In this document: piece after piece, positions 10,424 through 19,165 of the stretch | How the letters are laid out: each line of letters begins with the position of its first letter | How positions within the stretch are numbered: the stretch's first letter is position 1 | DNA from: Corallococcus soli | GTDB lineage: Bacteria; Myxococcota; Myxococcia; Myxococcales; Myxococcaceae | Length of the DNA: 64,000 nucleotides | Reading direction: 5' to 3' | NCBI RefSeq assembly: GCF_014930455.1 | Contig: NZ_JAAIYO010000012.1 | Span: 186,001 to 250,000 of the forward strand | Made by a program: the position numbers and the translations under genes | Notes under the pieces: generated by a model | The model's input: only the letters and a program-made list of their open reading frames with translations | Told to the model about the DNA's origin: nothing | Databases searched by the model: none

Positions 10424-11266
10424 ATGAACGAACAGACCTTCATGAAGTTGATGCGTGTGCTGCCCAAGTCGGCGGTGTCCTCCGCGGTGGGCCTGGCCAC
10501 GCGCCTGCCCGCGCCGGCGCCGGTGCACCACTGGGCCATGCGCGCCTTCGCCAAGGCGTACAACGTGGACATGGCGGAGGCGGAGCACGCCTTCGAGAAC
10601 TACCCGACCTTCGCCCAGTTCTTCACCCGCGGCCTCAAGCCGGGCCTGCGCCCGGTGGACATGGGCAAGAACGTCGTCGTGTCGCCGGTGGACGGCCGGG
10701 TGTCCCAGGTGGGGTACTCGGACAACGGCCGGTGCCTGCAGGCGAAGGGCATCGAGTACACGGTGGACGAGCTGCTGGGGGACGCGCAGGCCGCGAAGCC
10801 CTTCCACGGCGGCGCCTGGACGACGCTGTACCTGTCGCCCCGGGACTACCACCGCATCCACGCCCCCCTGGGCGGCACCATCACCGGGTATGCGTACATC
10901 CCGGGTGAGTTCTGGCCGGTGAACCCCGCGTCCGTGAAGAACAAGCAGTCGCTGTTCTGCGTGAACGAGCGGCTGGTGACGTACCTGGAGACGCCCGCCG
11001 GCAAGGTGGCGGTGGTGAAGGTGGGCGCCACCTGCGTGTCGCGAATCAAGGCGTCCTACGAGGACATCACCACCCACATCGGCCAGCCGGGCAAGGTGCA
11101 CCGCTACGGCGCGGGCATCCCGGTGGAGAAGGGCGGGGAGCTGGGCCGCTTCGAGATGGGCTCCACCGTCATCCTCTGCTTCGAGCCGAAGCGGGTCCGC
11201 TGGGACGACAGCCTCCAGCCGGAAGCGGTGGTGCGAATGGGCACGCGCATCGGGGAGATCGTGTGA
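10424..11266 (+). CDS. psd: Phosphatidylserine decarboxylase proenzyme
   Basis: Makes phosphatidylethanolamine from phosphatidylserine. The 280-residue proenzyme contains the substrate-site segments 'VSPVDGRVSQVG' and 'LSPRDYHRIHAP' (catalytic His). The self-cleavage motif is MGST, with cleavage expected between Gly246 and Ser247 to give the pyruvoyl alpha chain of about 34 residues. Most family members have LGST; here Met replaces Leu. The enzyme normally associates with the inner membrane. The stop overlaps the GTG of hisS by 4 bases, an unusual pairing of lipid and tRNA functions in one transcript. Confidence 0.95.
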   Translation: MNEQTFMKLMRVLPKSAVSSAVGLATRLPAPAPVHHWAMRAFAKAYNVDMAEAEHAFENYPTFAQFFTRGLKPGLRPVDMGKNVVVSPVDGRVSQVGYSDNGRCLQAKGIEYTVDELLGDAQAAKPFHGGAWTTLYLSPRDYHRIHAPLGGTITGYAYIPGEFWPVNPASVKNKQSLFCVNERLVTYLETPAGKVAVVKVGATCVSRIKASYEDITTHIGQPGKVHRYGAGIPVEKGGELGRFEMGSTVILCFEPKRVRWDDSLQPEAVVRMGTRIGEIV

Positions 11267-12561
11267 GTCAGAAGATCAACGGCGTGAAGGGGATGAACGA
11301 CCTTCTGCCCGGCGACATTGAAGTCTGGCAGTTCGTGGAGCACACCGTGCGCACGCTGTTCGGCCGCTTCGGCTACGGCGAGGTGCGCACGCCCATGGTG
11401 GAGGACACCGCCCTCTTCGTGCGCAGCGTGGGCGAGGAGACCGACATCGTCGGCAAGGAGATGTACACCTTCGAGGACAAGGGCGGCCGCAGCCTGTCCC
11501 TGCGCCCGGAGGGCACCGCGCCCGCGGCCAGAGCGTACATCGAGCACTCGGTGAGCAACGCGGAGCCGGTGTCGCGCTGGTTCTACATGGGGCCCATGTT
11601 CCGCTACGAGCGGATGAAGACGGGCCGCTACCGCCAGTTCTCCCAGATTGGCGCGGAGGCGTACGGCGCGAAGGAGCCCGCGCAGGACGTGGAGCTGATG
11701 GACATGGTGGTGCAGTTCCTGGAGGCCCTGGGCCTCACGGACGTCACCCTGAACGTCAACTCCCTGGGCGACGACGCGTGCCGGCCCGCCTACCACGCGA
11801 AGCTGGTGGAGTACCTCAACGCGCACCGCGAGGAGCTGTGCGCGGACTGCCAGCAGCGGCTGGAGCGCAACCCGCTTCGCGTGCTCGACTGCAAGAACGA
11901 GAAGTGCCAGGCGGTGGCCGGGGCCGGGCCCAACGTCCTGGAGTTCCTGTGTGAGCCGTGCCGCACGCACTTCAGTGACTTGCAGCGCAAGCTGGGGGCG
12001 CTGGGCATCCGCTACGTGGTGAACCACCGGCTGGTGCGCGGCCTGGACTACTACACGCGCACCGTCTTCGAGTTCATCGCGGCGCATCCCGCGCTGGGCA
12101 CCGCCAGCACCGTGGGCGGTGGCGGGCGCTACGACAAGATGGTGAAGGGCCTGGGCGGGCCGGACGTGCCCGCGGTGGGCTTCGCCATGGGCCTGGACCG
12201 GCTGGTGCTCCTGTTGAAGGAGGGCGGCAGGACGTTCACCGCCCAGCCGGACCTCTTCATCGCCGTGGCGGACGCGGACGTGGCCTGCCAGGACGCGGGG
12301 CTGGCGTTGACCAGCCGCCTGCGTCGCGAGGGCTTCCACGTGGACTTCGACACGCGCGGCGGCAGCCTCAAGAGCCAGATGAAGCGCGCGGACAAGTCTG
12401 GCGCCCGCTTCACCCTGGTGCTGGGCGGCGACGAGGTCCGCAGCGGGGACGCGAAGCTCAAGCCCATGGCGGGCGGCGACCTCGTGCCCGTGAAGCTGGA
12501 CTCGGTGGGCAAGACCCTGCGCGCGCTGCCGGCGGCACCCGCAGCGGCGCCCCAGGGCTGA
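11263..12561 (+). CDS. hisS: Histidyl-tRNA synthetase
   Basis: Charges tRNA-His with histidine. The 432-residue length is normal for a bacterial class II enzyme. Motif 2 ('LRPEGTAPAARAYIEH'), the histidine-specific 'LVRGLDYYTRTVFEF' and motif 3 ('VGFAMGLDRLVLLL') are all present, followed by the anticodon-binding domain from about residue 325. The GTG start lies in the 4-base overlap with the end of psd. A 9-bp hairpin follows 36 bases after the stop. In E. coli hisS adjoins yfgM-bamB-der. Here those genes lie 42 kb away. Confidence 0.96.
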   Translation: MSQKINGVKGMNDLLPGDIEVWQFVEHTVRTLFGRFGYGEVRTPMVEDTALFVRSVGEETDIVGKEMYTFEDKGGRSLSLRPEGTAPAARAYIEHSVSNAEPVSRWFYMGPMFRYERMKTGRYRQFSQIGAEAYGAKEPAQDVELMDMVVQFLEALGLTDVTLNVNSLGDDACRPAYHAKLVEYLNAHREELCADCQQRLERNPLRVLDCKNEKCQAVAGAGPNVLEFLCEPCRTHFSDLQRKLGALGIRYVVNHRLVRGLDYYTRTVFEFIAAHPALGTASTVGGGGRYDKMVKGLGGPDVPAVGFAMGLDRLVLLLKEGGRTFTAQPDLFIAVADADVACQDAGLALTSRLRREGFHVDFDTRGGSLKSQMKRADKSGARFTLVLGGDEVRSGDAKLKPMAGGDLVPVKLDSVGKTLRALPAAPAAAPQG

Positions 12562-12754: not shown

Positions 12755-13165
12755 ATGGCGAGCGTTCCCCGCACCGCATCCGTGATCGATGGCCCGCGCT
12801 GGATTCCCGTGGACGGGGACAGCATGTGGCCGTCGTTGCGTGCGGGTGACGTGGCGGAGGTGGAGCCCCTGGTGGAGGCGCCGCGTCCGGGCGAGGTGGT
12901 GCTGGCGCGCTTCGAGTCGTCGCTGGTGCTGCACCGGGTGCGCTGGTGTGACGGCGACGTGTGCGCGCTTCGCGGGGACAACGGCGGGGGTGAAGATCCG
13001 CCGCTGCCTGTCTTCCGTATCCTTGGGAAGGCGCGCCGCGTGCGACGTGGGGGCGCCGTGCTGGAAGTGGATCACTGGGACGTGGGCCCGCGACGGCTGG
13101 GCCGCTGGCGCGCGACGGTGAAGCGCAGACTGGCCACCTGGCTGGGAAGGACGGGCCGCTCATGA
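12755..13165 (+). CDS. S24/S26 signal-peptidase-like protease, soluble Ser-His type
   Basis: First gene of the overlapping operon. The 136-residue protein has the protease motif 'GDSMWPSLRAGD', with Ser23 as the likely nucleophile. It also has 'LHRV' (His60) and 'LRGDN' (Asp75). That Ser-His-Asp layout is the one used by Sec11/SipW-type signal peptidases, not the Ser-Lys pair of LepB. No membrane segment is visible, and the C-terminus is basic and helical. It probably cuts a peptide or protein made by this operon; the 55-residue peptide is the obvious candidate, by inference. The stop overlaps the ATG of the PqqD-like gene (ATGA). Confidence 0.75.
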   Translation: MASVPRTASVIDGPRWIPVDGDSMWPSLRAGDVAEVEPLVEAPRPGEVVLARFESSLVLHRVRWCDGDVCALRGDNGGGEDPPLPVFRILGKARRVRRGGAVLEVDHWDVGPRRLGRWRATVKRRLATWLGRTGRS

Positions 13166-13476
13166 GTTTCGCGGAAGCCAGTGTGCCGCGCAGGCGCGCG
13201 GGGGCGTCGGGCGAGTGGTTCGGGGCGGACTTCCTGGTGCTGGACGCGGAGGGGCGCACCCTGCGGGGGCTCAACGCGACGGCGGCGCGCGTCTGGGCGC
13301 TCTGTGATGGGCAGCGCACGGCCCGCGCGGTGGCGGAGCAGGTGGCGCTCGAGTTTTCGACCGACGTGGGCCCGGTGCTGGCCGACACGCTGCGCTTCCT
13401 GACGGAGCTGCAGCGACGCGGTCTGGTGGATGAAGTGCGCGCGCCGGCCGGTGCCGCGCCTGTGGAGGTTCGATGA
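13162..13476 (+). CDS. PqqD-family peptide-binding chaperone (RRE-like)
   Basis: A 104-residue protein with the PqqD pattern: a short beta start, then 'LNATAARVWALCDGQRTARAVAEQVALEF' around residues 35-62 and a closing 'ELQRRGLV' helix. PqqD domains bind leader peptides of ribosomally made, modified peptides (the RRE function) and hand them to an enzyme. Here no radical-SAM, YcaO, cyclase or lanthipeptide enzyme is encoded nearby. The only candidate enzymes are the HprK-like kinase and the protease in the same operon. ATGA overlaps are present at the 5' end and with the lipoprotein gene at the 3' end. Confidence 0.82.
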   Translation: MSFAEASVPRRRAGASGEWFGADFLVLDAEGRTLRGLNATAARVWALCDGQRTARAVAEQVALEFSTDVGPVLADTLRFLTELQRRGLVDEVRAPAGAAPVEVR

Positions 13477-14018
13477 TGCGAGCGCTCGTGGCGGTGCTGG
13501 CGGGAGCGGTGATGGTGTCGGCGTGTTCGGAGGGCGTGTCCCCCCGGCCTCCTCCCGCGGTGACGCCGGGGCAGGGCAGCGACAGCGCGGGCCCCCTGGA
13601 GCCGACGGACGTGCTGGCCGGCGGCGGAGGCGAGGTCCAGCCTCCGCCCGAGCCCGTGGACGAAATGGAGGTGCCTCCGGTGGAGGCGCCGCCCCCGTCC
13701 GGCAGCGCGCGGGTGGTGGGCGCGGCGTCCGTGCCGGTGGCCCTGTCCCAGGTGGAGCAGGTGGACGTGGACTTCGTGGTCCAGGGCGTCCGGGGCAAGG
13801 GCGTGGTGGACGTGGAGTTCATCACCCCGAGCGGCCGGCCCTACGAGAAGCAGAGCCAGCCGGTGGAAGCGCCGCCGGAGGAGTCCCGCACGCTGCGCTT
13901 CTCGCTTCCGGTGGCGGGCACGCTGGTGACGTCGTCGCGGATGACGGGCACCTGGCAGGTGCGGTTCTTCCTGGATGGCGTGCAGCTGGCCGCCACCCCC
14001 TTCACCCTGGATCCGTGA
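13473..14018 (+). CDS. Lipoprotein of the PqqD/HprK operon
   Basis: A 181-residue lipoprotein with signal 'MMRALVAVLAGAVMVSAC', where the lipobox is VSAC. Residues of about 20-75 are a low-complexity Pro/Glu/Gly tether. The last 100 residues are a beta sandwich ('VDFVVQGVRGKGVVDVEFITPSG', 'GTWQVRFFLDG'). It has no catalytic motif. Its position between the PqqD-like gene and the large secreted propeller protein, with a 4-base overlap upstream, suggests a surface anchor or partner for the operon product. That is inference. Confidence 0.7.
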   Translation: MMRALVAVLAGAVMVSACSEGVSPRPPPAVTPGQGSDSAGPLEPTDVLAGGGGEVQPPPEPVDEMEVPPVEAPPPSGSARVVGAASVPVALSQVEQVDVDFVVQGVRGKGVVDVEFITPSGRPYEKQSQPVEAPPEESRTLRFSLPVAGTLVTSSRMTGTWQVRFFLDGVQLAATPFTLDP

Positions 14019-14031
14019 CGTGAGCGCCGCC

Positions 14032-17000
14032 ATGAACCTCCGAACCCTGACGCTCCTCACGACCGTGCTGCTGCCCGCGGTGGGCCTCGCCCAGACCTGG
14101 ACGGCCAAGTTCATCGCGGCGCCTGGCGAAGCCAGCGCGCGCGTGGTGATGGACGAGGAGTCCGACCTCGTCGTGGAGGTGACGAACACGGCCCCGGCCG
14201 AGTATGACAACTCCCGGCTGTCGGAGGTGTCCTTCGTCCTGCCGGACGGCTACCAGTTCCTGGGCGGCCTCCCCGCGGCGGAGACCCCGGGTTGGAAGAT
14301 TGAGTACTTCGACGCCAACTCGCGGCGCCTCACCTTCCAGTCCACGGTGGACTGCTCGGATGACGCGGATCGCGGGCTGGCGCGGGGACAATCCGCGCGC
14401 TTCGTGCTGAGCATGGTCGCCCCGTCGGATCGCGCGAACGACAAGACGGATGAGCAGTTGGCGGAGGGCTCCAATGGCCGCGACCAGTGCGACGGCACCG
14501 AGTACTCCCTCGACCCCGAAGCCCAGTCGTGGACGCGCTCCAGCCTGAACGCCACGGTGACGATGACGCCCCGGGGCCTCGCGACCAACGGGGCGGCCGT
14601 GGCCCGGGTCGTGGTGGAGAACCGCACCAACGCGAACACGGGGACGCTCACGGTGGAGAACCCCACGTCCACGAGCTCCGTGCCCCTGATGACCGGGACC
14701 AAGGAAGCGCCGTTCAACAAGTCGGTGCCCCGACGGGGCGCGGGCGTCTTCGTGCTCAACGTGCGGCCGACCGCCGCCGGCACGCTGTCGGCCCGGGTCC
14801 GGGCGCGTCTGAACAACAATGGCGCCACCGTCACCGCGCCGCTGGCCGACTCGCCGATGGTGAACGTGGGCGCCTTCGTCGCGGCAGCGGACATGGACGT
14901 GGCGGATGCATTCGCCGGTGAGCAGGTGACGCTGCGGCTCACGGTGCTCAACACGTCCACCACGAACACGTACGCGAACGTGCGCCCGCGCGCGCCGGTG
15001 TTGGTGGGCAACGCGACCGCGTCGCTCGTGTCGGGGCCTTCTCCGGAGGCGACGACGCAGCTGGCGCCAGGCGTCTCCGCGCAGTTCACCTGGCGCTACC
15101 AGGTGTCCGGGGCTCCCGGCGCGAGCTACCAGTTCCAGGCGCAGGCGGACGCGACGCTCAATGGTTCAGGGGTGGTGACCGGCCTGGTCACCGCGCGCAA
15201 GGGGAAGATCGTCCTGCAGCGCGTGCGGCTGAGCCACGAGGCGGTGTCCACCGCGGCGACGAACGTCATGGTCACGTACACGGTGCAGAACCGGGGTCCG
15301 CTGCCCATCATCGAGGTGAAGCTCTTCAAGCCGGCGGTGAACTACTTCGCCGTGGCCGCGGCCGGGCCGCAGTCGGTCCCTGACTGGACCCTCTACTACG
15401 ACGACGCGTACTTCCTCTGGGAGTCGAACTCCGGCGAGGGCATCCCTCCGGGCGGCGAGCTCTCCTTCCGCGTTCCCTATTCGGGCTTCTCCGCCGTCAC
15501 CGGGGACACGGCGTTCCGCCACCGCATGGAGCTGGTCCAGGGCTACAACGATCCGCGCATCCGCGTGAGCGCGACGATGACGCTGCTCGCGGTGACGAGC
15601 GCGCCGGACGTCCAGCGCGTCACCGGCGTGGCGCGCGACGGCAGCGTGACGCTGACGTGGGACAACCCGTTCAATCACGGTGGCACCCTGGTGCTGCGCT
15701 CGCAGGGGACGGCGCCGCCAAACACCGCGCCCGTCAGCGGCACGCACTACGCGGTGGGGGACGTGCTGGGCAACGCGACCGTCGTCTACTCGGACGAGTT
15801 CAGCTCCGCCTCCAGCTTCACGGACACCACCGTCACCAACGGCACGACGTACGTCTACCGCGTCTTCAACGCGGACGACGTGCGCCGGTACGGCCCGGGC
15901 ACCCAGCCCACCTCGCTGGGCCTGCTCGCCACGCCGCGAGCGCACGGGGCAGGGGAGCCGCTGTGGTGCTACTCGGTGGGCCTGTCCACGCTGTTCCAGC
16001 CCGTCACCGCGCTGGGGGCGGGCATCTTCAGCTCCTTCAACGATTCGGTGGTGGGCAGCCTCACGAACACGGCCAACCCGGTGGAGGACGGCGCGGAGCG
16101 CTTCCGGCCGGTGAAGCTGACGGCCAAGGTGGGCAGCCGCTTCCCGGTGGTTCCGCTGCTGGGCCGGCCGGGGCAGCAGTTCCTGGTCGTGGGTGATCAG
16201 GCCGGGGTCCCGGCGGTGATCAACGCGTTCACGGGCGAGTTCCTGTGGCGCAACACCGCGCTGGGCCTGGGCAACATCAGCTCGTTCCCCGTCACGCAGC
16301 TGCTGGACTACGCGAACCCGGCGTACCGGGCGAAGTACTCGAACTTGGACCTGGCCATCTTCGCGACGCGCGTGTCGTCCGCCGCGCAGAACCAGGTGGT
16401 CGCGCTGAACGCGGCCACGGGCGCGTTGATGTGGCGCTACCGCCCCGGGGATCTGGGCATGGTCAGCGGCGGCATGCTGGTGGACTACACGACGAACCGG
16501 CTCTACGTCGGGACCAAGACGGGCGTGGGCAGCACGAACACCCTGCGGGTGCTCGACAGCCTCACCGGCGTGGAGCTGGGACGCCGGGCGCTGGGGGACC
16601 TGGAGTTCGGCGTGGTGCGCAACGCGACGACCAACCAGATCCTCGTCACCGCGAACGACGGCATGGTGTACGGGCTGGATCCGGCCACGCTCGCGACGGT
16701 GTGGTCGGTGTCGCTCGCCGCGCAGCCGACGACCTCCGCGTTCACCCACTTCGTGCGCCCGCTGGGCCGGGGCTTCGTGGCCAGCCTCTCCAACGGCACG
16801 GTGGAGCGCTGGGAGATGGATGCGAACAACGTCCCCACGCGGTTGTGGACGACACCCATCGCGGGGCCCTCCGGAACCTTCACCCTCAACCAGAACGGCG
16901 TGGCGCGCATCTACGTCGGCAGCTCGGACGGCAAGGTGCACCAGCTGGAGCTGGAGACCGGCGCTGATTCGGGCCAGGTGTCGATGGGTCCCGCGCAGGA

Positions 17001-17094
17001 CATCGGCACTCCGACCATCGACCACACCGTGGGCCGGCTGCACGTCGGTTCGGCGGATGGTCGCCTCTGCGCCTTCCCGGTGCCCTTCCCATGA
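14032..17094 (+). CDS. Large secreted protein: repeat beta domains, Fn3 and beta-propeller
   Basis: A 1020-residue exported protein. The ATG at 14032 gives the signal peptide 'MNLRTLTLLTTVLLPAVGLA'; a GTG at 14020 is an alternative. Residues of about 20-540 form several Ig-like/DUF11-type domains ('DLVVEVTNTAPAEYDN', 'NRGPLPIIEVKLF'). An Fn3-like unit ('APDVQRVTGVARDGSVTLTWDN') lies at about 540-640. The last 330 residues are a PQQ-type beta-propeller with blade endings such as 'VVALNAATGALMWRY', 'VYGLDPATLATVW' and 'IYVGSSDGKVHQLELETG'. It is probably a surface or extracellular scaffold. Its stop overlaps the ATG of the 55-residue peptide gene. Confidence 0.78.
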   Translation: MNLRTLTLLTTVLLPAVGLAQTWTAKFIAAPGEASARVVMDEESDLVVEVTNTAPAEYDNSRLSEVSFVLPDGYQFLGGLPAAETPGWKIEYFDANSRRLTFQSTVDCSDDADRGLARGQSARFVLSMVAPSDRANDKTDEQLAEGSNGRDQCDGTEYSLDPEAQSWTRSSLNATVTMTPRGLATNGAAVARVVVENRTNANTGTLTVENPTSTSSVPLMTGTKEAPFNKSVPRRGAGVFVLNVRPTAAGTLSARVRARLNNNGATVTAPLADSPMVNVGAFVAAADMDVADAFAGEQVTLRLTVLNTSTTNTYANVRPRAPVLVGNATASLVSGPSPEATTQLAPGVSAQFTWRYQVSGAPGASYQFQAQADATLNGSGVVTGLVTARKGKIVLQRVRLSHEAVSTAATNVMVTYTVQNRGPLPIIEVKLFKPAVNYFAVAAAGPQSVPDWTLYYDDAYFLWESNSGEGIPPGGELSFRVPYSGFSAVTGDTAFRHRMELVQGYNDPRIRVSATMTLLAVTSAPDVQRVTGVARDGSVTLTWDNPFNHGGTLVLRSQGTAPPNTAPVSGTHYAVGDVLGNATVVYSDEFSSASSFTDTTVTNGTTYVYRVFNADDVRRYGPGTQPTSLGLLATPRAHGAGEPLWCYSVGLSTLFQPVTALGAGIFSSFNDSVVGSLTNTANPVEDGAERFRPVKLTAKVGSRFPVVPLLGRPGQQFLVVGDQAGVPAVINAFTGEFLWRNTALGLGNISSFPVTQLLDYANPAYRAKYSNLDLAIFATRVSSAAQNQVVALNAATGALMWRYRPGDLGMVSGGMLVDYTTNRLYVGTKTGVGSTNTLRVLDSLTGVELGRRALGDLEFGVVRNATTNQILVTANDGMVYGLDPATLATVWSVSLAAQPTTSAFTHFVRPLGRGFVASLSNGTVERWEMDANNVPTRLWTTPIAGPSGTFTLNQNGVARIYVGSSDGKVHQLELETGADSGQVSMGPAQDIGTPTIDHTVGRLHVGSADGRLCAFPVPFP

Positions 17095-17258
17095 GTCCTC
17101 GACCTCCGCAGCTCCAGGTCAGCCCGGTCGCGACGAAGCCCGCTCCGGCCGCGCCGACCGTGTACGTGCCGCCCGCCATCCTGTGGGAGCAGCCCTTCGT
17201 CGCGCTGGCGCAGATCTCCGCCTGCAACATCCCGGGCGAATCGGAGTGCGTGCCGTGA
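17091..17258 (+). CDS. 55-residue peptide, candidate RiPP-type precursor
   Basis: A small gene with its ATG in the stop of the propeller gene and its TGA in the GTG of the kinase gene, so it is coupled on both sides. The N-terminal half is Pro/Ala/Val-rich without a signal peptide. Then 'TVYVPPAILWE' has Tyr25-x-x-Pro28-x-Ile30, close to the YxxPxL leader motif that PqqD-type domains bind in lasso-peptide precursors. The tail has Ser43, Cys45, Ser51 and Cys53 ('ISACNIPGESECVP'), suitable for phosphorylation, disulfide or thioether chemistry. With a PqqD-like protein, a protease and an HprK-like kinase in the operon, a modified peptide is the best guess. It could also be a small structural protein. 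Confidence 0.6.
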   Translation: MSPRPPQLQVSPVATKPAPAAPTVYVPPAILWEQPFVALAQISACNIPGESECVP

Positions 17259-18130
17259 GTGGAGGGGGCCCCTTGTCGGGTCCCCGTGATGCCGCGCTCC
17301 GGGTCACCCTCGCCGGGTGGACGGTGGCGCTGGACGTGGAAGAGGCCGCGCTCGCCGCGACCTTGCGGCGTGTGTTCGGCGCGTTCCTGGCTTCGGAGGC
17401 TGGGGACGCCCCCGTCGACGCCCGGATCGTGCTGCGAGCCCCTTCGATTTCGCGACCTCCTCCCGCCGTCCGGGAGCTGCCCCGGCTGGAGGCTGGCGCT
17501 TCGGGGACGCTGCGGGTGGAGGGGGAGGACTACGCGGCGGTGCTCTCCGAGGGCCGGACCCATGCGCACGTCACCGGGGACGGACGGTTTCCCGTGGAGA
17601 CGGTGCTCAAGGTGATGCTCGCCTCGGCGCTCGCGAGGCGCGGGGGGCTGCTCATCCACGGCGTGGGGCTGGAGTGGGGAGGGCGCGCGGCGCTGTTCGT
17701 GGGCCCGTCCGGCGCGGGCAAGAGCACCCTGGGCGGACTGTGGCGTGACGCCGGTGGGACGGTGCTCGCGGATGAGCTGGTGGCGGTGTGGCCGGAGGAG
17801 GGCGGGGGATGGCGGGCCGCCGGGACGCCGTGGAACGTGCTGAGCAGCGCCACGGAGTCCGCGCTCGTCGCGGTGGGCACGCTGGCGTGGGACGCGGCTT
17901 CGCGGTGGGAAGCGCAGGGGGCGGGAGCGGTGGCTCGCGTGCTGCTGCTCAATGCCCTGTTGCCCGAACCTACCGTCGCGGGGCGGGGTGCGCTCGTGGC
18001 CTCCGCGGGGCGCGTGTTGTCGTCGGTGGAGACGGCGCGGCTCGTGTTCTCTCGCGATGCTTCCGCGGCTGCGGTGGTGCGGACGCGGCTGGAGGCGGAC
18101 TCGCGGGAGTCTGGCGGGAAGGGGCCGTAG
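17255..18130 (+). CDS. HprK-like serine kinase (HPr kinase-related P-loop protein)
   Basis: Last gene of the operon, with its GTG start inside the stop of the peptide gene (GTGA). The 291-residue protein has Walker A 'GPSGAGKST' with Lys156, preceded by 'LLIHGVGLEWGGRAALFV'. An acidic metal motif 'VLADELVAV' follows. This matches the C-terminal kinase domain of HPr kinase/phosphorylase, without the N-terminal sensory domain. Related stand-alone kinases sit in lasso-peptide and PqqD clusters and phosphorylate the precursor peptide, so the 55-residue peptide is the likely substrate by analogy. No HPr gene is nearby. The N-terminal 130 residues are of unknown fold. Confidence 0.8.
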   Translation: MSGGGPLSGPRDAALRVTLAGWTVALDVEEAALAATLRRVFGAFLASEAGDAPVDARIVLRAPSISRPPPAVRELPRLEAGASGTLRVEGEDYAAVLSEGRTHAHVTGDGRFPVETVLKVMLASALARRGGLLIHGVGLEWGGRAALFVGPSGAGKSTLGGLWRDAGGTVLADELVAVWPEEGGGWRAAGTPWNVLSSATESALVAVGTLAWDAASRWEAQGAGAVARVLLLNALLPEPTVAGRGALVASAGRVLSSVETARLVFSRDASAAAVVRTRLEADSRESGGKGP

Positions 18131-18262
18131 TGCGCTGATGGGGGAGGGCCCGCACCCAGCGGCGATGCACGGAAGCCCCTTGCGCGGTGGACCGCGATGC
18201 GGGCCCGCTTCCGGGGGCTCGCGCCAGACACGCGTCTGCGTTACAGGGGGCGTCGGAGGCGG

Positions 18263-19165
18263 ATGACGGTGGCTGAGACGCGGGTTCCCTTGACGGTGAT
18301 CGCTGGGCCCACGGCGTCGGGCAAGACGGCGCTCGCCATCGCCTGGGCTCGGGAGGCGGGCGGCGAGATTGTCAGCGCGGATTCGCAGCAGGTGTATCGC
18401 GCCTTCGACATCGGCACCGCGAAGCCCTCCCTGGAGGAGCTGTCCGCCGTGCCGCACCACCTCGTCTCGGTCGTGGATCCGCTGGAGCCCTTCTCCGCCG
18501 CCGAGTACCAGCGCCGTGCGGACGCGGCCATCGCGGACATCACGTCGCGCGGACGCCCGGTGTTCGTCGTGGGCGGCACCGGCCTGTACCTCCGCGTGCT
18601 GCTGCATGGCGTGGTGGACGCACCCGGTGCCCTGCCTGCCCTGCGCGCGGAACTGGAAGCAGTGGCGTCTGAGCAGGGGAGGGAGGCCGTGCACCGCCGG
18701 CTGGCCGAAGTGGATCCGGAGACCGCGGCGAAGCTGCCTCCCCAGGACCTGGTGCGCGTCATCCGCGCGCTGGAGATCCACGCGCAGACGGGCATCCCGG
18801 CCTCGGAGTTCCGCCGCGCCCATGCCTTCGCGCCGGATCGCTACGCCTTCCGCCTGTTCGTGCTCAACCCGCCCCGCGACGCGCTGTACGCCGCCATCAA
18901 CACGCGCGCGGAGGCGCTGTTCGCCCAGGGGCTGGTGGAGGAGACCCGGGCCCTGTTGGAGCAGGGCTATGCGGACGCCGCCCCCATGCGCAGCGTCGGC
19001 TACGTGCAGGCCCGTGCCGTGGTGGAAGGCCGGATGACCCGCGAGGAGGCCATCCTCGACACGGCCCAGGAGACCCGCCGGTACGCCAAGCGCCAGCTCA
19101 CCTGGTTCCGCCGGGAGCCCGGCGCGGTGTTCCTCACGCCGCCCTACGCCCGCCCCGAAGCCTGA
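18263..19165 (+). CDS. miaA: tRNA dimethylallyltransferase
   Basis: Adds a dimethylallyl group to A37 of tRNAs that read UNN codons. The frame is open from 18197, but the ATG at 18263 is chosen because GGAGGCGG lies just upstream and the P-loop 'VIAGPTASGKTALA' then falls near the N-terminus. 'SADSQQVYR', 'DIGTAKPS', 'VGGTGLYLRVLLHG' and the late 'SVGYVQARAVVEG' are standard MiaA motifs. At 300 residues it is full length. It follows the kinase gene by 132 bases and is probably a separate unit. The tRNA-Leu(CAA) at 25.6 kb is a possible substrate. Confidence 0.95.
   Translation: MTVAETRVPLTVIAGPTASGKTALAIAWAREAGGEIVSADSQQVYRAFDIGTAKPSLEELSAVPHHLVSVVDPLEPFSAAEYQRRADAAIADITSRGRPVFVVGGTGLYLRVLLHGVVDAPGALPALRAELEAVASEQGREAVHRRLAEVDPETAAKLPPQDLVRVIRALEIHAQTGIPASEFRRAHAFAPDRYAFRLFVLNPPRDALYAAINTRAEALFAQGLVEETRALLEQGYADAAPMRSVGYVQARAVVEGRMTREEAILDTAQETRRYAKRQLTWFRREPGAVFLTPPYARPEA

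Follow-up and report, generated by a model that had tools for sequence, protein, structure and literature searches.

The described peptide system closest to the locus considered here is that of the linear polyphosphorylated peptides (LPPs) of Bacillota, reported by Popov and coworkers (Popov et al., Nat Commun, May 2026; PMC13381572). According to these authors, the LPP core set consists of a discrete recognition element (RRE) of the kind found in pathways for ribosomally synthesized and post-translationally modified peptides (RiPPs), an SpI-like peptidase, an HprK-like kinase and a precursor with a YxxP motif, with no cyclase. In Paenibacillus the precursor motif is YxxPxVLxHQxIxFETxxS; the target of the kinase is its Ser at Tyr+18, which corresponds to Ser3 of the core. 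The RRE, LppB, binds the Tyr and the Pro via D70 and N33, the importance of both having been shown by mutation, and the SpI-like LppS, which requires the triad S29/H68/D93, cleaves on the C-terminal side of the Thr at Tyr+15. LPPs were stated to be restricted to Bacillota, and the biological role of LPPs and of paeninodin-type phosphorylated lasso peptides was stated as not known (PMC13381572). A second point of reference is the Bsf cluster of Bradymonas sediminis, which makes a phosphorylated lasso peptide (Duan et al. 2023, PMC10368454). Its kinase, BsfK, has the motif H-G-G-G-K-S-D-D and phosphorylates core Ser3, found at Tyr+19, in a reaction accelerated by the RRE; an FG-GAP protein that borders the cluster was set aside by the authors as uninvolved (PMC10368454). 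Here we describe a block of six genes (positions 12755 to 18130) in a stretch of 64,000 nucleotides from Corallococcus soli (contig NZ_JAAIYO010000012.1, positions 186,001 to 250,000), the whole of which is referred to as the window. This block probably follows an LPP-like RiPP route to a linear, phosphorylated peptide that contains Cys.

The six-gene block and its proposed pathway

All six open reading frames were found where a first-pass annotation, made from the letters of the window, had placed them. They overlap by 4 bases at four junctions and are separated by 13 bases at the remaining one, so that translational coupling is likely. The features of the block, followed by its two boundary genes, are:

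12755..13165, plus strand: S24/S26-type (SpI/Sec11-like) serine protease, 136 residues, with a Peptidase_S24 Pfam match; proposed leader peptidase
13162..13476, plus strand: PqqD-type RRE, 104 residues, with a PqqD Pfam match; Asn38, Asp75, Phe79
13473..14018, plus strand: lipoprotein, 181 residues, lipobox Cys18; conserved C-terminal domain outside any named family
14032..17094, plus strand: secreted propeller protein, 1020 residues; signal peptide, immunoglobulin (Ig)-like repeats and C-terminal BamB-like beta-propeller
17091..17258, plus strand: precursor peptide, 55 residues, conserved in each type-1 locus examined and supported by its substitution rates
17163..17210, plus strand: leader motif YVPPAILWEQPFVALA (Y25-A40), with YxxPxI for RRE binding and then the predicted cleavage box ALA|Q
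17211..17255, plus strand: predicted core QISACNIPGESECVP (Q41-P55), with Ser43 at 17217-17219, Cys45 at 17223-17225 and Cys53 at 17247-17249
17255..18130, plus strand: HprK/PEPCK-fold kinase, 291 residues, GTG start; H135, P-loop G150-S157, D173-E174
11263..12561, plus strand: hisS, fixed upstream neighbour and block boundary by synteny
18197..19165, plus strand: miaA, fixed downstream neighbour and block boundary by synteny; start codon uncertain

Pfam names three of the six products (Peptidase_S24, PqqD and PQQ_2). The PqqD protein (Pfam PqqD, E 4.3e-14) aligns without gaps to the crystal sequence of LppB (9x8z_B), with N38, D75 and F79 falling on LppB N33, D70 and F74, and these three residues are invariant among 21 orthologues. 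Against the equivalog for the PqqD of pyrroloquinoline quinone (PQQ) biosynthesis it scored 28.7 bits and did not reach the cut-off of 46. In the protease (Peptidase_S24, E 1.1e-7), Ser23, His60 and Asp81 are invariant among 20 orthologues, and the protein is likened to LppS by the type of triad, not by alignment. No membrane helix is evident in its 136 residues, and a search of solved-structure sequences found no relative of it. Among the PHROGs families it matched phage repressors (S24) only, and the kinase and the peptide had no match there.

Sequence matches of the kinase are weak (HprK_rel_A, E 3e-5), and searching solved-structure sequences with it returned P-loop noise only. Its AlphaFold2 (AF2) model, with a predicted local distance difference test score (pLDDT) of 90, aligns with PEPCK chains with Z values of 13.8-15.2 over 241-255 residues, that is, over the whole domain, and its top Foldseek matches include HprK/P chains; as modelled, the protein has the HprK/PEPCK fold. 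Ten alignment columns are invariant in the window kinase and 22 relatives, including H135, the P-loop, D173 and the Glu that follows, giving the motif H-GxSGAGKS-DE.

The precursor peptide is real, and its segment Y25-A40 is under strong purifying selection. Among 16 Corallococcus sequences, the ratio of nonsynonymous to synonymous substitution rates (dN/dS) is 0.07 in this segment and 0.48 in the part N-terminal to it, so the small open reading frame proposed in the first-pass annotation as a peptide gene has homologues and is kept by selection. Distant loci of the window's own type (type 1) retain the Tyr-Pro motif, a Trp, a Phe and LA before the predicted cut, followed by a Ser and two Cys. 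The leader in the window reads YVPPAI, which fits YxxPx[L/V/I], and the precursor as a whole, YxxPx[V/I] with a Ser at Tyr+18, stands in the same register as the LPP motif. Because of this shared register, cleavage is predicted at ALA40|Q41, within an AxA box of signal-peptidase type, which would make Ser43 residue 3 of the core. A Ser is found at this position (Tyr+18) in all type-1 peptides except that of L044/G025. Ser51 (GESEC) was considered as the phosphorylation site and rejected, as L065 and L042 have lost it but retain Ser43.

In the proposed route, PqqD, a discrete RRE whose binding residues are conserved, would bind the precursor via Y25-V-P-P-A-I30 and present it, the HprK-like kinase would phosphorylate Ser43 at Tyr+18, and the soluble S26-type protease would cut at ALA40|Q41. 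The expected product, QI(pS)ACNIPGESECVP, is a free linear peptide that has two cysteines and is about 15 residues long. The earlier proposal, in which the genes form a phosphopeptide or peptide-processing system that is linked with a large surface protein, is well supported, as far as comparative data go, by the conservation of the block and by its residue-level match to characterised systems.

The propeller protein matches PQQ_2/BamB propellers over residues 787-983 (E 1e-13), and its AF2 model (pLDDT 78) retrieved BamB chains in Foldseek with a target-normalised TM-score (TMt) of about 0.65. Cys18 of the lipoprotein is invariant among 21 orthologues. The linkage to a large secreted propeller suggests a role for such peptides at the cell surface; from this invariant linkage only, we guess that the propeller and the lipoprotein hold the peptide or form its site of action.

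Comparison with described clusters

The block shares with LPP clusters an RRE with the same key Asn, Asp and Phe, a Ser/His/Asp protease, an HprK-like kinase and the lack of a cyclase. However, LPP clusters contain a nucleotidyltransferase (NTP transferase) and an MsbA-type exporter, both of which are absent from the block, and for this reason it is named LPP-like and not filed as LPP. In addition, the block is inherited vertically at one locus and tied to a propeller and a lipoprotein, whereas LPPs are patchy in distribution and often lie near capsule loci. With the Bsf cluster it has in common an RRE-assisted HprK-like kinase predicted to act on a Ser shortly after a YxxPxL-type leader. In contrast, Bsf makes a lasso peptide and includes a B2 peptidase, a cyclase, an ATP-binding cassette (ABC) exporter and an NTP transferase, none of which is present in the block, and BsfK has DD where the window kinase has DE. 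The HPr-rel-A cassettes (TIGR04352/TIGR04353) also combine an HprK-related kinase with a PqqD-family protein, but assignment to them was rejected, since the window kinase scored 23.1 of the 200 bits needed and the PqqD protein 18.7 of 35.

The first-pass annotation had known of no described system with this gene set. This does not hold for the core enzymes, which have been published as those of the Bacillota LPPs (PMC13381572), but it stands for the myxobacterial branch and for the linkage to a propeller and a lipoprotein, both undescribed in the open-access literature searched. In that literature, searched for PqqD with FG-GAP proteins, HprK-related kinases and RRE clusters, no earlier report of the gene set in myxobacteria was found. 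The new elements are the phylum, the stable vertical inheritance and the linkage to giant secreted proteins.

Conservation and inheritance

With the window proteins as queries, all 16 Corallococcus genomes, and nine others that were examined, were found to have the six-gene block between hisS and miaA, which answers a doubt raised by the first-pass annotation, namely that the gene set might be confined to the source strain. Four genera of the family (G018, G022, G025 and G032) and four genomes of genus g41 (a genus of 27 genomes of 9-13.5 Mb) are represented among the nine, and g41 is probably the genus Myxococcus. Across these 25 distinct syntenic genomes, the protease is missing from G025, and three contigs end inside the kinase gene. 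The pairwise identities of every block gene rank as those of hisS do (Spearman 0.90-0.95), and this agreement of gene distances points to vertical inheritance of the block.

Two records call for separate mention. The propeller gene of G006, a Corallococcus genome in one contig, matches as three pieces in different frames (L062:4551-7575), with the peptide and kinase genes intact, which suggests a frameshifted or decayed propeller gene. Record L037 (BNCN01000013.1) bears the label Comamonas sp. KCTC 72670, but its hisS - block - miaA locus is typical of myxobacteria, and for this reason the record is probably misnamed or contaminated.

Related modules in Myxococcota

A cluster in genome G085, of another family, contains homologues of all six genes in a different order (L106:2084-9465): NTP_transf_5 - S26 - PqqD - peptide - propeller - lipoprotein - kinase - radical S-adenosylmethionine (SAM)/SPASM. 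Its propeller is homologous to that of the window over 932 columns (E 8e-33), and so is its lipoprotein to the window lipoprotein (hhalign E 2.4e-8). The peptide reads YEPPAIAWDEAFEPLT|AAS, with a leader ending in LT and a core starting with AAS, near the AQS of LPP cores. Since the genes stay together despite the rearrangement, gene order argues that the propeller and the lipoprotein belong to the pathway. The G085 cluster links the window block to ordinary RiPP clusters.

At the level of the phylum, the kinase had matches in 131 of 195 genomes. At least 81 of the 126 non-Corallococcus kinase places listed have a PqqD gene within 12 kb, at least 78 of them on the same strand. Of 40 distant kinases, 17 have a small open reading frame with YxxP and Cys in the 1.6 kb upstream, compared to 7 of 537 background windows. 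No Transglut_core3 B2 protein was found near the kinases checked by position (59 relatives). The NTP transferase family PF14907 is present in 171 of the 195 genomes and was therefore discarded as uninformative when used alone as a pathway marker; its matches listed for genome G000 lie on another contig than the six-gene block.

The distant kinases of other Myxococcota belong to modules with a similar layout, many of which have the arrangement PqqD - Ig-like/FG-GAP lipoprotein of ~2000 residues - YxxP peptide - kinase - S26. A second module of this kind is found in other Myxococcaceae genera (L046, L047, L048, L049, L059, L099 and L100), in several cases 3' of etfBA. It consists of PqqD, a giant FG-GAP/Ig lipoprotein, a YxxP peptide, an HprK-like kinase and S26, followed by EamA-like and metallo-beta-lactamase (MBL)-exonuclease-like genes, and its peptides have a Ser or Thr at Tyr+18/19 and Cys. 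Genomes G022, G025 and G032 carry both a related module and a window-type block. At L047:7819-8817 (minus strand), the second module's S26-type protease carries a fused GNAT acetyltransferase domain, and this domain might acetylate the peptide at the N-terminus that cleavage exposes. In L056, L071 and L108, PqqD, a YxxP peptide and the kinase stand beside a C25 (gingipain-type) peptidase, that of L071 being assigned to C25 by resemblance only; in L056 and L071 the kinase motif is the classic DD. Some modules include a radical SAM gene (L093).

Alternative readings of the block

Several observations weigh against the LPP-like route. No NTP transferase gene and no MsbA-type exporter gene lie between hisS and miaA, where only the six genes are present, and the window kinase has a Glu in place of D187, the second Asp in the active site of BsfK. 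The 15-residue core of the peptide, with a dN/dS of 0.68, is less constrained than the leader. Genome G025 keeps the five other genes of the block and has a second lipoprotein, but has lost the protease, and its peptide has a Ser at +16 and +19 and none at Tyr+18. Finally, the C25-linked peptides of L071 and L108 have no Ser or Thr near +18 and a Cys near +20. Because of these last peptides, the chemistry may differ between classes, and phosphorylation of Ser would not be universal across the modules.

An unlikely alternative is that the peptide, instead of being released to act on others, matures into a ligand or cofactor within the secreted propeller, somewhat as peptide-derived PQQ does for quinoprotein propellers, with the kinase, the RRE and the protease as a maturation kit for this one protein. 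In favour of this, the propeller and the lipoprotein are as conserved as the enzymes and stay with them even in the shuffled G085 cluster, and in other modules this kit is found with different giant secreted proteins. However, neither a binding site nor a cofactor motif was identified, the propeller best matches BamB-like proteins and not a PQQ enzyme, and the block of the source genome contains no maturase besides the kinase. We give still less credence to an intracellular switch, in which the phosphorylated peptide would control the propeller and the lipoprotein at the level of production or secretion, nothing being exported. HprK relatives are regulators in carbon control, the genes are likely to be translationally coupled, and the block encodes no exporter; yet an RRE motif and an AxA box ahead of a variable, Cys-containing core are the layout of a RiPP precursor, and the S26 protease in the block, as well as the radical SAM and NTP transferase genes in G085, suit biosynthesis better.

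Least probable of all, to the point of being nearly discounted, is a lasso peptide pathway with its B2 peptidase and cyclase encoded elsewhere, even though a YxxPxI leader, a discrete B1-like RRE and an HprK-like kinase are common to phosphorylated lasso clusters (PMC10368454). In none of the genomes examined does the interval from hisS to miaA contain a B2 peptidase or macrolactam cyclase gene, the remainder of the genome not having been searched for cyclases. The sole Transglut_core3 match in the whole genome is partial (26.1 bits) and far from the block, so a B2 acting in trans was rejected as having no convincing candidate. Moreover, the penultimate leader residue is Leu, instead of the usual Thr or the reported Ile or Val. 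An anti-phage role was likewise dropped, as a PADLOC scan gave nothing useful.

Possible surface partners and a further locus

Beyond the LPP-like route of the block itself, we tentatively raise the broader possibility that Myxococcota carry widespread, vertically inherited RiPP-type peptides that partner giant surface proteins. Across the modules, these partners are BamB-like propellers, FG-GAP/Ig lipoproteins of roughly 2000-3000 residues and C25 peptidases. In such a scheme, a short Cys peptide would be readied by a PqqD-type RRE together with an HprK-type kinase and, usually, an S26 protease, and would work with the surface protein or attached to it; the system would serve maturation at the cell surface and not the making of a secreted antibiotic. 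The block itself would take to another phylum a type of pathway described as confined to Bacillota, and it offers a concrete partner protein. Enzymes of the LPP kind are found here in a stable, single-copy, vertically inherited locus beside defined secreted proteins, which makes their function testable in a tractable organism. Should the peptide indeed act on the propeller or together with it, a structural role at the cell surface would be added to RiPP enzymology.

A second PqqD gene was observed in Corallococcus (L088:7209-7835 in genome G001, and also G000:C5:262510-262707). It is followed by a small open reading frame ending in ATDKCTCSMGMGVLTTTTSAE and by a transporter-like gene, and this locus is possibly another RiPP-like cluster.

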